From Oligoflexia bacterium (lineage in GTDB: Bacteria; Bdellovibrionota; Bdellovibrionia; JABDDW01), in NCBI GenBank assembly GCA_034439615.1, contig JAWXAT010000047.1:1-64000 (forward strand): 64,000 nucleotides of DNA, written 5' to 3'. The position numbers and the translations under genes are program-made. This document shows, in pieces, positions 24,971 through 31,303 of this stretch. The first letter of the stretch is position 1, and the number at the start of each line of letters is the position of its first letter. The notes under the pieces are model-generated. The model did not search any database. It had not been told where the DNA came from and saw only the letters and a list, made by a program, of their open reading frames with translations.

Positions 24971-25732
24971 TTAATTAAAATAAAATCTAAAAGTCATAGC
25001 AGCCCATGGACCACTAAGATCTGTGAAGCGATTTGTACCATCTATGTTTTTAATTTGATTTCCAGATTCAATACGCCCCCGAACCGTGCTTGCTGATCGA
25101 TTCGCAGTATAGTTATTAACTACAAGATATCTATAACCGCTATCCAAACTCATGCTTACATTGTCAAAAAATGAAAATTCGATTCCAGCAAAAGCTTGCC
25201 CCATTATACCAAAACCTGAACCTTCTTCGATATAATCGGTGACTCCGTAGAGAGTGGTTCCGGTCGGTGTCATGGTAACCGTATTTTTTAAAGTAGCTAA
25301 TGCATACCCTGCACCACCGCCGATAAAAAGTTTATAATTGGTTGAGCTTTTCATTGGAATTTCAAAATTAATCTGCGGAATAACAGCATACACTTGACTC
25401 GTAACACTAAGGGCTTTCAAAGTATTCACACGCCCTTCGAGTTCTTTTGTGAGCTGCGGGTACAAAAGTTCTACTCCTAAACGTGTGGTGATCCCCTTGG
25501 TAAAAGAGAATCCAAATTCACCAGAATAATTTTGATTCACACCATCGTTATCAGGAAAATCAACAATTGTAGGGAACCCAGGTGCATATGCATACTTTTG
25601 TAGTTTATTAAGTCCAACCGCACCTCGAAGATAAGCTGCAGCCGTCTGTGATTTAAAATTAAAAACACGCGCATCAGATATTGATGCATGGCTTAAAACG
25701 ACAGCCATGAAAAAAATAGATTTTATTTTCAC
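24971..25732 (-). CDS. Predicted outer-membrane beta-barrel protein
   Basis: The product has 253 residues with a signal peptide to about residue 22 (ISDAR). Alternating strands include GEFGFSFTKGITTRLGVELLYP and FFDNVSMSLDSGYRYLVV, and the last strand PWAAMTFRFYFN ends in Phe-x-Asn, as barrel proteins often do. It resembles small OmpW/OmpA-like barrels in pattern, with no firm family. Its start overlaps the stop of the upstream AMIN-like gene by 4 bp (ATGA), so the two are coupled. Confidence 0.72.
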   Translation of the reverse strand: MKIKSIFFMAVVLSHASISDARVFNFKSQTAAAYLRGAVGLNKLQKYAYAPGFPTIVDFPDNDGVNQNYSGEFGFSFTKGITTRLGVELLYPQLTKELEGRVNTLKALSVTSQVYAVIPQINFEIPMKSSTNYKLFIGGGAGYALATLKNTVTMTPTGTTLYGVTDYIEEGSGFGIMGQAFAGIEFSFFDNVSMSLDSGYRYLVVNNYTANRSASTVRGRIESGNQIKNIDGTNRFTDLSGPWAAMTFRFYFN

Positions 25733-26250
25733 ATGCCTTTCACGTCGACAACGATGCGACCAGGCTTATCTGTACTTACCAATTCAAAAACCTCCACTTG
25801 CGCTTTTGACTTCAATAGCATTTCAATAGTGAGGTTCTTATTGGATTCATCATAGTACATTGTGCCAGTTGAAAAAAATTTCGACTTAGAAAGTAATTGT
25901 TTTAAAATTGGATTATTAATTTTAGATGGAATCACATTCTCTAAATCAATTACCACTCGTCTTTGATTGCCTTGAACAGCCACATGAAAAAACCCTGGGC
26001 GAAGGGCCAGCTTACCACCATCTTTATGAGCGATGTCGAGCACTAGTCTTTCTAAACCAGTAACCTTATCAAAACTTTGGCGTATATTTAAAAGTGCGAC
26101 ATCACCCTGGTCGTGTCCGCCAACAAACACACCATTATCCATATATTTTTCACGCTTCTCAGCTGTGACTTGTTGTACAGGAATTGCTGCGTCAGCATTT
26201 GAAAGAAAGCATACGAATATAAAAAATATCGGCACAACTTTGTTTGTCAT
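25729..26250 (-). CDS. Exported AMIN-like domain protein
   Basis: The product has 173 residues with a signal peptide to about residue 22 (SNADAA). The mature part is a beta-rich domain whose end, VFELVSTDKPGRIVVDVKG, fits the AMIN-like fold found in periplasmic peptidoglycan-linked proteins such as AmiC and secretins. I place it there with modest confidence. GAGGT lies before the ATG. It is coupled to the barrel gene, so the pair may work together at the cell envelope. Confidence 0.6.
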   Translation of the reverse strand: MTNKVVPIFFIFVCFLSNADAAIPVQQVTAEKREKYMDNGVFVGGHDQGDVALLNIRQSFDKVTGLERLVLDIAHKDGGKLALRPGFFHVAVQGNQRRVVIDLENVIPSKINNPILKQLLSKSKFFSTGTMYYDESNKNLTIEMLLKSKAQVEVFELVSTDKPGRIVVDVKGM

Positions 26251-26343
26251 ATTTTACCTCTGAGCCTTATTTCTGAAGCAGACTCAATGTTGATGGTACT
26301 GATGAAGAGGTAAGATTATCAAATATAAAATGAAGAGCGTGAT

Positions 26344-29300
26344 CTAGTTACCATTGTTAATTTGATCTATCAGTACACGAGAGAGGCCTGAGACCTGATT
26401 ATTCTTTGCCAAGAGCAAGCCGACATCAATCAACCTTTTGCGCTGCATGTCGTCTTGTAATAAAAAGGCCAATCCATCTCCTACGCCACTTTGCCCAGAT
26501 GACTGATTGAGTATGCTTTTTATAAGTTCACTAGGCTTAATTTCCACAACACGAGGGTCAAGGGAGTATAGGTTTAAAGCCGAATTAATCTGAGAAAATT
26601 CACCAGGTCGCTTCGCATAACCGTCTGAAGTAAGTTTCATAAGTGAAGGAAGTAAGTAGGCACTGCGCGAATCACGCAGCGTCAGTAGAGTGTCAATAAA
26701 CTTGATAAACACATTCCATGACGATGAATCTAAAGTTAATAAATTAGCACCTAATTTAAGCGCTCCGCCTTGAGGCTGTGTTGAATCTTCAACCAAAGTG
26801 TCTGTGAGGTCATTCCAAACTACCGACTTATTGATCACAAACGGTAAACCTTGAAGAAGAGATGTTAACTTGAGAGTTGGGGCTTCGATATTAATCACAT
26901 TATGAAAAATTGAATCTTTGAAATTTTTGTACCCCTGAAGATTATTTTCCTGAATCGCCAATAATTTATCAATGAGGATTTCAATTGGCGATAAATCTCC
27001 TTGTTGAGCTTTTGTTAATAAAGCATCAATTACTTTTTTCAATGGCTCAATATCATCTGGTTGAATGAGACTAATAACGCTTAATACACCATTGATGATT
27101 CGCTCCGCATAACCTTTCTCTGCTGCATGACTAAGAGATTGTGTGAGCAAATTAAAAAGGCCCACGTAACTCATGTAGCGAAGACTTCCCATATGATTAT
27201 TAATAGGGTCATCTTTCCATTTGAAAGCTTCTGGAGTTGCATTTTGAAGTGCAATATAGAGGCGTTTTAAAACCCTAAGATCACCATTGGCAGCAAGCTC
27301 ATGAAGAGCATCAATATTCTCTTCCATATTCTTAAGATGAATACCACGGTTGCTATTACCATAGAGTGCTGTCGCAATATTAAGTTGGCTGTGTTTACTT
27401 TTAATTACCTCGGAAAGATCAACACCCTTAATAATTCCTAATTGAAAGTCTGTTCCTACGTGGCTAATTCCCCCGATGGGAACATCAATATCAGCCACAT
27501 TTACTAAAGTTTCTAATTGATCTAATCGTGTGACGATGTGAATTTTTCTACTACCATCTGGCATGTAATTGACTACAAGTCTTTGAGATCTTATTGATTC
27601 CATCAAAAACCGAGGCATATTATAATTTTTGTGCAAATCTTTTAGTGCGGCAATGAGTTCATGTAAATCTGTAGTGCGCAATGAATCTCTAAGAGCAACA
27701 ATAATCTGCTCTTTCCATTGTTGATTATTGAGCCGTGGATATAAGCCAGTTTCATACAACCAAGTATTGTTGCGTGTTTCAAAATTTTCTACAGCTTGAT
27801 TAAATTCAGCGTCGATATGTGATTGTGACCAGTGAGTGTACACATCTTTGATATTTTTTTTCATGTCTTTAATTATTTTAGGATCAGTCGTTATCTTTAT
27901 TCTAAAATTATTATCACTCTCAAAAACTTTCACTGGCCCTTGATTTTTTAAATTGAGTGCAATAACACCCATTTGAGTAAAATCGCGCATCTGAGTAATC
28001 TTCCCAAGCATTTGAAGTGCGTGGTCGGCACCGCTGTGAGAAAAAATGTCAGATAATAGACCGTCAAACCGATAAGGAATTGTGTAAGGGCTTTCACCAG
28101 AAATACTTATGAGTTTAAAAATTTTTGTCAAATCACCAGATTTAAAGATTCTTTCAATTTCACTTAACGTTCCAAGCAAGTAGGGTGAAGTTACAAGTGT
28201 AGTTCTTAAGAGCTCAGCAGCGCTCTCAAGAAGACCCGCCCCTTTTAATTGCTCAGCGATTTGCCCAATTACAGGCACCGAACCTTCTGCATTAATGCAT
28301 TTCATTGCTAAATAAAGGTTATTACCACCCGAACTAAAGAGGCTTGAACCTTGAAGTTGTGCGCACGAAGTATAATCTCCCGATGGCGGTGCAGGAGTGA
28401 ATGGCGTGATATTATTTAAGACAGTATTTGGGTCTTCTTGGTTTGGCACATACAGTGATTGTGGTGAACCACTTCCCATGCCTGCATTTTGAGAATTCTT
28501 AAAAATTTCGACCAAGAATTTTACTAAGACTTTTAACTGACCATTTCCTGCAATTGTCCCAGTAAATGCAACCGCATTTATAAATTTATTATCCGTGAAC
28601 CAGTTATATAAAACAGGGGCGATATTTTTCAGCAACTTCTCATCTAAAAGTGTATCGCGAATTACCTCTTGCACGGGTCTCTCACTCGCCAAACCCAGTG
28701 TCTGAGCAGCAACTCCAAGAGACATCCCCAAACCACCGCGCTGATCAGCGAGAGATTTTTTAAAACTTTTAGCAAACGCTACAAGCTCTATGCGACGTTG
28801 AGGGTCTGCAGCTAAAATGTTTCTTAGTACAACTTGAAGACTTGCTTCTGCACTGTTAGTAAATACTTGCTTAGCAACAGCATCTTTTAAATCTCTCAAT
28901 GCTTGATCTTGGCTAGTAATACCAGCCACAAGTACTGAGAGATTAATAAAATCTCTTTTCTCTGGTACTAAACTATTGAGATCAGTTAATAAAATAATTC
29001 GTGATCGCTCAGGAATATTTAGATTTATCCAATCAACTAATAATTTACCGCTTAAATTTTCAAGAACCAAATAATTTAATAAAACACTTAAAGTGTTCAG
29101 GTCAGTCTCGGTGAGATCTTTTGCCATAAGTTCAAGTAAAAATCGCGACGCACCTCGGGCAGCAATTTCTTCTAACAATGGCCCAGCTAAGGTGACATAA
29201 TCTGATTTTACTACTCGAACCCACTCATTAAGCCTTTTGCTTTTATCAAGTAACCCAAGTGATGATTTTATTCCTACACCATACCCACGTAATGCCAAAT

Positions 29301-30210
29301 CTGAAAGTAAGTCGATATTACTGGTAAGATCTGTATGGTAGTCACAAGAATCTTTGCTCGTTGCTAAAAGCAGAGGGACTGTTTGCAAAAAGAATCTATT
29401 TGCTGCGTCTGTTGAGGTTAAACTATTTACTTCTCGCGCGAAGAATCCCCAGATATTTTCATGTTTACGATTACTCGTTCCATTTTGAAAACAAGTAAGC
29501 GGGCGATCTGCTCCATTGATAGTTTTTCTTAACCGTTCAAGCCGATTACCACCAGTTGTGTTTCCCAATGGAAGATAATCTAAAAGATCTCCCATATTGA
29601 TGAGGTCCAGATCTGTTAGTAATTTTAGCCCTCTTCCAAATTGTGCATCTGAAAGATGCGTGAGTACCCCATGAAAATTTCCATCTGTTATACTATGTAA
29701 AATAATGTCCGCTGCCAAATTCGTGGTCTGATTTACATCTACGACAGAATTTGCATCATCTTTTGAAAACAAAACTGAAAGTACACGAGCTCGCAAGCCA
29801 CTAAATGTATTTGCACCTGCAACAATTGCAGGACTGAGCTGATCTCGCTTAATAACGTCACCAGCATAACGGGCTAATGAAATAAAATCTTTCTCATCTT
29901 TAACCAAATGACGAGCCAGTGGCAGAGCTTTTTGTAGAGTCTGTGTTTCACCCAGCACCTGAATATTTTTATAATAACCGTCTAAGAATCCATGAGTGTC
30001 CATGCGACTCACGAGGTCTAAGATTTTATTGAGGCGATTATCTGAAGAATTAATGTGGCGATTATAAATTTCAAGAGATGCATTAAGGTCAGAATCAGCA
30101 GTTGAATCTAAAAAATCTTTGTACGGCTGAATAGAATTATTCTCACCATTGAGACACGTCACCATTGAACGAATTTTTTTTGCTGTGAGCTGACGCATGT
30201 CTAATTCCAC
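26344..30210 (-). CDS. Giant predicted lipoprotein, start codon unclear
   Basis: From GTG 30210 the frame encodes 1288 residues with no recognised domain: Leu/Asp/Asn-rich helices throughout, with a Pro/Gly-rich break near residue 610. The same frame continues upstream of 30210 to a TAA at 30379-30381. That extension encodes RKYAIGLSLSFAACSPTAEPPSFN..., a lipoprotein signal with Cys at 30280-30282. No ATG, GTG or TTG lies in the extension, so the annotated start would lose the signal. The true start may be UUA 30322-30324 or AUU 30307-30309, or an ATG at 30377-30379 in another frame may be joined if one G of the G5 run (30341-30345) is extra. Probably a large envelope lipoprotein. Confidence 0.65.
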   Translation of the reverse strand: MELDMRQLTAKKIRSMVTCLNGENNSIQPYKDFLDSTADSDLNASLEIYNRHINSSDNRLNKILDLVSRMDTHGFLDGYYKNIQVLGETQTLQKALPLARHLVKDEKDFISLARYAGDVIKRDQLSPAIVAGANTFSGLRARVLSVLFSKDDANSVVDVNQTTNLAADIILHSITDGNFHGVLTHLSDAQFGRGLKLLTDLDLINMGDLLDYLPLGNTTGGNRLERLRKTINGADRPLTCFQNGTSNRKHENIWGFFAREVNSLTSTDAANRFFLQTVPLLLATSKDSCDYHTDLTSNIDLLSDLALRGYGVGIKSSLGLLDKSKRLNEWVRVVKSDYVTLAGPLLEEIAARGASRFLLELMAKDLTETDLNTLSVLLNYLVLENLSGKLLVDWINLNIPERSRIILLTDLNSLVPEKRDFINLSVLVAGITSQDQALRDLKDAVAKQVFTNSAEASLQVVLRNILAADPQRRIELVAFAKSFKKSLADQRGGLGMSLGVAAQTLGLASERPVQEVIRDTLLDEKLLKNIAPVLYNWFTDNKFINAVAFTGTIAGNGQLKVLVKFLVEIFKNSQNAGMGSGSPQSLYVPNQEDPNTVLNNITPFTPAPPSGDYTSCAQLQGSSLFSSGGNNLYLAMKCINAEGSVPVIGQIAEQLKGAGLLESAAELLRTTLVTSPYLLGTLSEIERIFKSGDLTKIFKLISISGESPYTIPYRFDGLLSDIFSHSGADHALQMLGKITQMRDFTQMGVIALNLKNQGPVKVFESDNNFRIKITTDPKIIKDMKKNIKDVYTHWSQSHIDAEFNQAVENFETRNNTWLYETGLYPRLNNQQWKEQIIVALRDSLRTTDLHELIAALKDLHKNYNMPRFLMESIRSQRLVVNYMPDGSRKIHIVTRLDQLETLVNVADIDVPIGGISHVGTDFQLGIIKGVDLSEVIKSKHSQLNIATALYGNSNRGIHLKNMEENIDALHELAANGDLRVLKRLYIALQNATPEAFKWKDDPINNHMGSLRYMSYVGLFNLLTQSLSHAAEKGYAERIINGVLSVISLIQPDDIEPLKKVIDALLTKAQQGDLSPIEILIDKLLAIQENNLQGYKNFKDSIFHNVINIEAPTLKLTSLLQGLPFVINKSVVWNDLTDTLVEDSTQPQGGALKLGANLLTLDSSSWNVFIKFIDTLLTLRDSRSAYLLPSLMKLTSDGYAKRPGEFSQINSALNLYSLDPRVVEIKPSELIKSILNQSSGQSGVGDGLAFLLQDDMQRKRLIDVGLLLAKNNQVSGLSRVLIDQINNGN

Positions 30211-30324
30211 ATTGCGACAAGCTTCTATATTGATGGGTTTTATGGGTGAGTTAAACGAAGGCGGCTCTGCAGTTGGTGAGCAGGCAGCAAAAGATAACGA
30301 AAGTCCAATGGCGTACTTCCGTAA
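30211..30324 (-). other. Upstream extension encoding a lipoprotein signal
   Basis: This stretch is in frame with the giant gene and has no stop. Residues L-S-F-A-A-C form a plausible lipobox after Arg/Lys and a hydrophobic core; the -3 position is Phe rather than the usual Leu. It lacks any usual start codon. The G5 run on the minus strand at 30341-30345, just upstream, and the near-repeat GGGGATTTACG beside it are candidate sites of slippage or sequencing error. Confidence 0.6.
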
Positions 30325-30399
30325 ATCCCCTGTCGTAAATCCCCCGATGATGCCTACGGACGAAAGCCTGGCTCTGCATTAAGAAGCCATTAACTTTAT

Positions 30400-30493: not shown

Positions 30494-31030
30494 TTAAGTT
30501 CCATAACCAGAGTAACCAGAGCAACAAATGCCACCTTGAGTACCAAATCGGGGCTCAGGCATACATCGTGATGATTGACCACAATATGCTGTGGCATTAC
30601 TCGTGTTACAGTAACTTCCGTAACCTGAACCACCAAATGATTGGTAATTCACGCCAAAAGAAAATCCCCAGCGACGAGAAATACGGTAACCGCCGTAATT
30701 ATTTTGGGGATAATAATTCTGAGGAACACACGCAAATTGAGGAGATTGTCCCCATTGTGAAACGTTCATGGGGTATCCACCACTTTGTAGGCAATTATAA
30801 TATTGAGCGCGTGCGATGCCATATGCATCATTGCCATATTGGGGGCCATATTGATTGTACTGACCATTATTTGTATATGAGTTACAGTATTCAACCGGCA
30901 TTCCAGGAGGACAATTTGTTGCCTGAGGGGTAACAGCGACTGTTGGTGCTTGGCCTTTTGATTCTTCTTTTTGACAACCAGCTAAACCAAATGCAGCTAC
31001 CGTTAGGGCTAAAAGAACTACTTTTTTCAT
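30494..31030 (-). CDS. Small Tyr/Gly/Cys-rich lipoprotein
   Basis: From the ATG at 31030 the product has 178 residues. The signal MKKVVLLALTVAAFGLAGC ends in lipobox LAGC, with the lipid-bearing Cys near residue 19. The mature part is rich in Tyr, Gly, Asn and Gln, with at least ten cysteines after the lipobox and a CCSGYSGYG end, suggesting a disulfide-rich or surface structure. No family is recognised. AGGAGG (31041-31046) is 10 nt upstream of the ATG; a TTG two codons earlier is less likely. It is divergent from nadK across a 273-bp gap. Confidence 0.78.
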   Translation of the reverse strand: MKKVVLLALTVAAFGLAGCQKEESKGQAPTVAVTPQATNCPPGMPVEYCNSYTNNGQYNQYGPQYGNDAYGIARAQYYNCLQSGGYPMNVSQWGQSPQFACVPQNYYPQNNYGGYRISRRWGFSFGVNYQSFGGSGYGSYCNTSNATAYCGQSSRCMPEPRFGTQGGICCSGYSGYGT

Positions 31031-31303
31031 ATGCAACGTGCCTCCTAAAATTGAACGTTATACTCACCTATAACAATGTCCGTGCCAACGTGCCAGCCAA
31101 GCGTGCCAAGACTCAATAAACACTTGAAATTCATCTGAAAAACATAGATTTGTGCTGCTAATTCTTAACTTTAAAAGTAGTGTAAAAATCATCGTTACTT
31201 GTAGGCCACACGAACACTCTTGCATTTTTTTCAAAGGCCTCTATATTTTTGATTTGCTTGAGTTTGCTTAAAGTTTAGACACACCTAGGAGGATTAATTC
31301 TTT
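31031..31303. promoter_or_regulatory. Divergent intergenic region before nadK
   Basis: The gap must carry promoters for the small lipoprotein and for nadK. It contains a short direct repeat CGTGCCA at about 31079-31110 and an AGGAGG ribosome binding site for nadK. I see no strong -35/-10 pair or hairpin. Confidence 0.4.

Follow-up and report, generated by a model that had tools for sequence, protein, structure and literature searches.

A giant lipoprotein of Bdellovibrionota lacking a canonical start codon before its conserved signal peptide, with ACG as the best-placed candidate start

The 64,000-nucleotide stretch of DNA from an Oligoflexia bacterium that we analyzed here (the window) encodes a giant lipoprotein whose export signal is shared by its relatives, in a reading frame that contains no ATG, GTG or TTG ahead of that signal. 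Comparison with orthologues points to an ACG behind a GGGGG run as the likely start position, and gene linkage in most relatives suggests a partnership with a MoxR ATPase system. We hold this account as a whole, that is, an exported lipoprotein, the MoxR partnership and a weakly initiating ACG behind GGGGG, with no more than middling confidence.

The open frame runs from 30378 to 26344 on the minus strand (1344 codons), follows a TAA stop at 30381-30379 and begins with the peptide RKYAIGLSLSFAACSPTAEPP. Between this stop and the lipobox cysteine codon at 30282-30280 there is no ATG, GTG or TTG, and the first canonical starts, GTG 30210 and ATG 30198, both lie 3' of the cysteine codon. The original prediction had described this situation correctly, including the stop, the frame and all coordinates, and it had likewise placed UUA (30324-30322), AUU (30309-30307), the G5 run (30345-30341) and an out-of-frame ATG (30379-30377) where we find them. 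Such an absence is unusual in the window's genome, since all 26 other lipoprotein N-termini collected from 776 kb of it had a canonical start (0/26 without one; the controls were picked regardless of start codon, and one cytochrome-oxidase-like internal helix that matched the regular expression was excluded by eye). No case was found either among 13 further lipoproteins of relatives or among 138 MoxR, DUF58 and VWA neighbor genes. A gene caller limited to ATG, GTG and TTG truncates the protein past the lipid cysteine and the invariant C54, and thereby, as had been anticipated, hides its export. The relevant features of the gene are the following.

26344..30336, minus strand: coding frame of the giant lipoprotein, from the proposed ACG to TAG, based on the sequence and homologues
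30341..30345, minus strand: GGGGG, the proposed Shine-Dalgarno sequence, with the equivalents AGGGGG in G002, GGGGG in G024 and AGGGG in G055
30334..30336, minus strand: ACG, the best-placed start candidate, 18 codons before the lipid cysteine and, like the GTG of G002, 8 codons from ATTGGAC
30280..30336, minus strand: predicted lipoprotein signal peptide, (fM)TGDLRKYAIGLSLSFAA followed by C, conserved in homologues
30280..30282, minus strand: lipobox cysteine, C33 of the frame, with Ser next to it, invariant in alignment A2
30217..30219, minus strand: invariant cysteine C54, upstream of GTG 30210 and lost with a conventional start
26267..26347, minus strand: out-of-frame continuation LDHALHFIFDNLTSSSVPSTLSLLQK up to a stop, matching the C-terminus that the family conserves; the window lacks one base here

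The predicted signal has the parts of a signal peptidase II substrate, namely, a basic n-region, a hydrophobic h-region and a lipobox leading to the cysteine (RK-YAIGLSLS-FAAC), in which the Phe at position -3 is slightly unusual. In three rounds of reading (34 + 60 + 16) we inspected the N-termini of 110 homologues from about 100 genomes of Bdellovibrionota type, and all 110 show a hydrophobic stretch leading to a lipobox-like cysteine that stands just before the conserved N-terminal block. Homologues without a lipoprotein signal, which the original prediction had named as the observation that would speak against a giant lipoprotein, were thus not encountered. Moreover, in a 30-member alignment five cysteines (C33, C54, C75, C296 and C345) are invariant and two (C672 and C694) nearly so, a pattern as expected if the protein is exported and disulfide bonded. 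Because both the signal and the cysteines are conserved in homologues, the signal is more than a product of chance; judged by comparison with relatives, we are certain that this predicted export signal is real, and lipidation of its cysteine is predicted from the lipobox. Initiation at GTG 30210 or ATG 30198 would make use of the first canonical codons of the frame and yield a cytoplasmic protein, but it would discard the invariant lipid cysteine together with C54, although all readable homologues possess the signal, and we consider it highly improbable.

Where, then, does translation begin? In the orthologue G002, the start codon is a GTG located 5 bases past AGGGGG and 8 codons before a conserved ATTGGAC. 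The window codon 8 places before the same ATTGGAC is ACG 30336-30334, separated by 4 bases from GGGGG at 30345-30341. In the window's genome, GGGG precedes the ATG start of 22 of 278 genes, versus 2 in a control interval, with a spacing of mostly 3-7 nt, so that GGGGG-N4-ACG lies at a proper Shine-Dalgarno distance; no Shine-Dalgarno sequence stands at a suitable spacing before any of the other near-cognate codons of the frame. The comparison of starts with homologues hence points to 30336-30334, the equivalent of the GTG of G002, as the likely start position, and it favors none of the codons put forward originally. ACG is a rare and poor initiator in bacteria. An unambiguous ACG start was found in no other member, nor is the near-cognate codon fixed in orthologues, the nearest of which start with GTG (G002) and ATG (G001). 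A 16S gene, with its anti-Shine-Dalgarno sequence, was not found in the assembly of the window's genome; the predicted fold of the leader is not exceptional (z -0.92), and a promoter search upstream of the gene returned nothing convincing. We also considered a conserved leader peptide, given the short ORFs that precede the gene in G001 and G002, and dropped the idea for the window because the overlapping ORF ends ~80 nt after the ACG, too far for simple coupling. In G001 itself (locus L012), a short ORF, MRPQSRIHG followed by a stop, has GGAGG-TT-ATG at its start, and its stop overlaps the lipoprotein ATG (ATGA), making it a possible coupled leader peptide.

Several other ways of starting the frame have to be weighed against the ACG. 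UUA and AUU, the non-standard codons proposed in the original prediction, share with ATC 30351-30346 a position in frame and upstream of the cysteine, and initiation at the TTA (30324-30322) would even produce a textbook n-region, MRKYAIG. However, TTA departs from ATG at two positions, and the G-run closest to it, at just 2 nt, is base-paired in the predicted fold; the ATT (30309-30307) leaves no basic n-region and has no G-run in range that could act as a Shine-Dalgarno sequence, which is also missing before the ATC. We therefore regard a start at any of these codons as improbable. Slightly less probable again is the second original proposal, in which an extra G in the G5 run masks the ATG at 30379-30377 and with it a longer n-region, or its variant in which ribosomes starting at this ATG shift by +1. 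The neighboring-frame ATG does exist and the frame is open up to the lipobox, but the run is retained in orthologues (G5 in G002 and G024, G4 in G055), as befits a Shine-Dalgarno sequence rather than an indel. In addition, G002 carries an in-frame TAG directly before its G-run, so that translation cannot enter from where the window has its ATG, and this ATG itself has no Shine-Dalgarno sequence and no visible frameshift signal.

A more serious competitor accepts the same start position and holds that the copy in the window is damaged or misread: an ordinary start would have been changed to ACG and one base lost at the 3' end, either in a fresh pseudogene or through an assembly that is wrong twice. 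The gene ends at a TAG at 26346-26344, whereas homologues continue with ALHF(L/I)FDNL, a motif present in the window in the adjacent frame, up to 26267. Compared with homologues, one base is missing near 26346, at the cost of ~25 conserved C-terminal residues. There are thus two irregularities, one per gene end, and together they may reflect either a recent null allele or a pair of local sequence errors; standing among ~50 intact-looking genes of the window, the 3' frameshift hints at a damaged allele or a local sequence error. That homologues keep the C-terminal motif which the window has out of frame, that ACG is a single transition away from ATG, and that the orthologues G002 and G001 start with GTG and ATG are all in line with damage. 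Against it stand the lack of any obvious frameshift in the ~50 other genes, the 1300 intact codons and the independent loss of canonical starts in other members, and the missing ~25 terminal residues may be harmless. Long-term gene decay found no support in a relative-rate test, in which the window gene evolves no faster than its orthologues G002 and G001. We consider a damaged or misread copy a substantial possibility that falls short of being probable; the choice between actual use of the ACG and such a copy is about even.

If the ACG is used, the closest precedent is infC, the gene of IF3, whose AUU or AUC start is under the control of IF3 (summarized in PMC5472188). The window's organism appears to employ a near-cognate start of its own in this gene, since its infC (L112) offers none of ATG, GTG and TTG ahead of the conserved N-terminus and an ATC fits as the start (GGAGG-N6-ATC). 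The window gene resembles infC in combining the lack of a canonical start with a good Shine-Dalgarno sequence and a near-cognate codon, and a conserved N-terminus without any canonical start upstream is found not only in the window but also in G055, G198, G220 and G222. It differs in that the family consists of envelope lipoproteins without a link to translation, in that the window codon is ACG rather than AUU or AUC, and in that the near-cognate codon varies within the family. A second precedent is sigR of Streptomyces, where a GTC start is repressed by IF3 (PMC5472188), again a non-canonical start acting as a throttle, and outside infC. That case concerns a sigma factor in one genus, while the present one is a phylum-wide lipoprotein with mixed predicted starts.

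The starts of the whole family show a bias toward weak codons. No canonical start is in reach in 5 of the 110 members, counting the window, whose gene was selected for its missing start. The other four are arranged as follows.

G198: GGAGG-N5-ATT
G220: GAGG-N7-ATA
G222: ATT with a weak Shine-Dalgarno sequence
G055: AGGGG-N6-ATT, or ACG at 3 nt

In the two clearest cases, an ATT or an ATA follows a good Shine-Dalgarno sequence; G220 and G222 are from a single genus. In G024, GTG and TTG are present but would leave no basic n-region, which GGGGG-N4-ATA does provide. With the window omitted, 4 of 109 members against 0 of 177 controls lack a canonical start (p=0.02), the controls being the 138 MoxR/DUF58/VWA genes and 39 other lipoproteins (0/39). 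An ATG is absent from the signal region of ~41 of the 110 members, compared with 5-15 of the 138 MoxR/DUF58/VWA genes, a deficit that depends on how the control genes are anchored and whose p value accordingly ranges from 2e-12 to 6e-7. A comparison restricted to other lipoproteins shows a weak deficit (42/110 vs 7/39, p=0.03); applying the later cut to L065, which has an ATG at -11, lowers the count from 42 to 41. The near-cognate codon overlaps the preceding gene's stop codon, or comes only a few bases from it, in three members, G198, G220 and G222 (loci L174, L160 and L146), where termination-reinitiation may make a strong start codon less necessary; coupling of this kind with the preceding gene is not visible in the window. 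For comparison, switches of an ancestral AUG to AUU or CUG are very rare, at 1.6e-5 to 3.2e-5 (PMC5622118). It is a tentative idea that the giant MoxR-Bat-linked lipoproteins are kept under weak initiation throughout the phylum, with more than a third avoiding ATG and several unrelated members relying on infC-like near-cognates (ATT, ATA, ACG), some of them touching the preceding stop.

As to the protein itself, Pfam and NCBIfam gave no match for the window protein and only two isolated weak matches among 30 members, and a Foldseek search against the PDB gave none at E<=0.001. The sequence profile resembles helical-repeat proteins (PPR and alpha-solenoid, designed or natural), and AlphaFold predicts the N-terminal half as all-helical, the models of the two halves being modest and poor (mean pLDDT of 62.8 and 46.7). 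Predicted all-helical repeats and profile matches are common to the window protein and these repeat proteins, but with no family or fold match found the likeness is likely compositional and not a matter of homology.

Orthologues were found in G002, G001, G055, G024 and G143. A single-sequence scan of genome contigs returned nothing, while an alignment search led to three named relatives, metagenome genomes labeled Oligoflexia and Bdellovibrionaceae, and a profile search detected homologues in 114 of the 369 genomes examined from the phylum, about a third. The family is apparently undescribed and unannotated. Among the 85 members with enough downstream sequence, 62 have a MoxR AAA+ ATPase gene within 1.6 kb downstream in the same orientation, and in 36 of these the distance is no more than 250 nt. 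MoxR is adjacent or one gene downstream and is followed by genes for DUF58, DUF4381-like and VWA proteins (loci L044-L069 and L123-L182), the arrangement of the MoxR-DUF58-BatA/B/C/D operons of the Bacteroides aerotolerance type, whose description does not include a giant lipoprotein (PMC5700661). In this phylum, the MoxR-DUF58-VWA (Bat) operon seems to have the lipoprotein as a constant part that has so far gone unnamed. The window gene, by contrast, is unlinked from MoxR, DUF58 and VWA; the genome's own MoxR-Bat operon is intact on contig C9, as a separate HtpX | MoxR-DUF58-DUF4381-BatA-VWA-TPR-BatD cluster. The downstream neighbors of the window gene are these.

25729..26250, minus strand: next gene, with a weak AMIN-like match, a conserved neighbor in G002
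24971..25732, minus strand: outer-membrane barrel-like protein, a conserved neighbor in G002, G055 and G024

The order NAD kinase/RecN, lipoprotein gene, AMIN-like and barrel genes is common to the window and G002 and partly kept in G055, G024 and G143. Just upstream of the giant gene, the window encodes a small Cys- and Tyr-rich lipoprotein (30494-31036, minus strand, TTG or ATG start); in G002, no such gene lies between those for NAD kinase and the giant lipoprotein. Pieces of a second giant lipoprotein copy stand at contig ends in G001 (C82 and C141), and G001 probably has a paralogue or is a mixed bin.

From the linkage to MoxR-DUF58-(DUF4381)-VWA/Bat genes in most members, we infer that the family is likely a partner of the MoxR-DUF58-Bat system. 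The frame would specify an exported, alpha-helical lipoprotein of ~1320 residues, probably anchored in the outer membrane and most likely a periplasmic partner or client of the MoxR ATPase; as a lipid-anchored helical scaffold, it might take part in envelope maintenance, either serving the MoxR-Bat complex or being served by it. In the window's lineage, the gene would have moved beside the AMIN-like and barrel genes, leaving the MoxR-Bat operon on another contig. Translation would most likely begin at the near-cognate ACG behind GGGGG, a deliberately weak start that would keep initiation and protein levels low and that IF3 could restrain further, as it does for infC.

A conserved giant lipoprotein tied by its relatives to MoxR-Bat offers a testable partner for a system whose function and clients remain open. 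Should the phylum-wide idea of weak initiation be true, the family would be among very few besides infC with recurrent non-canonical starts in bacteria, and a component of envelope stress would come under control by IF3 or by reinitiation. Provided that the near-cognate starts are genuine, the family would serve as a comparative case of start-codon throttling beyond infC.
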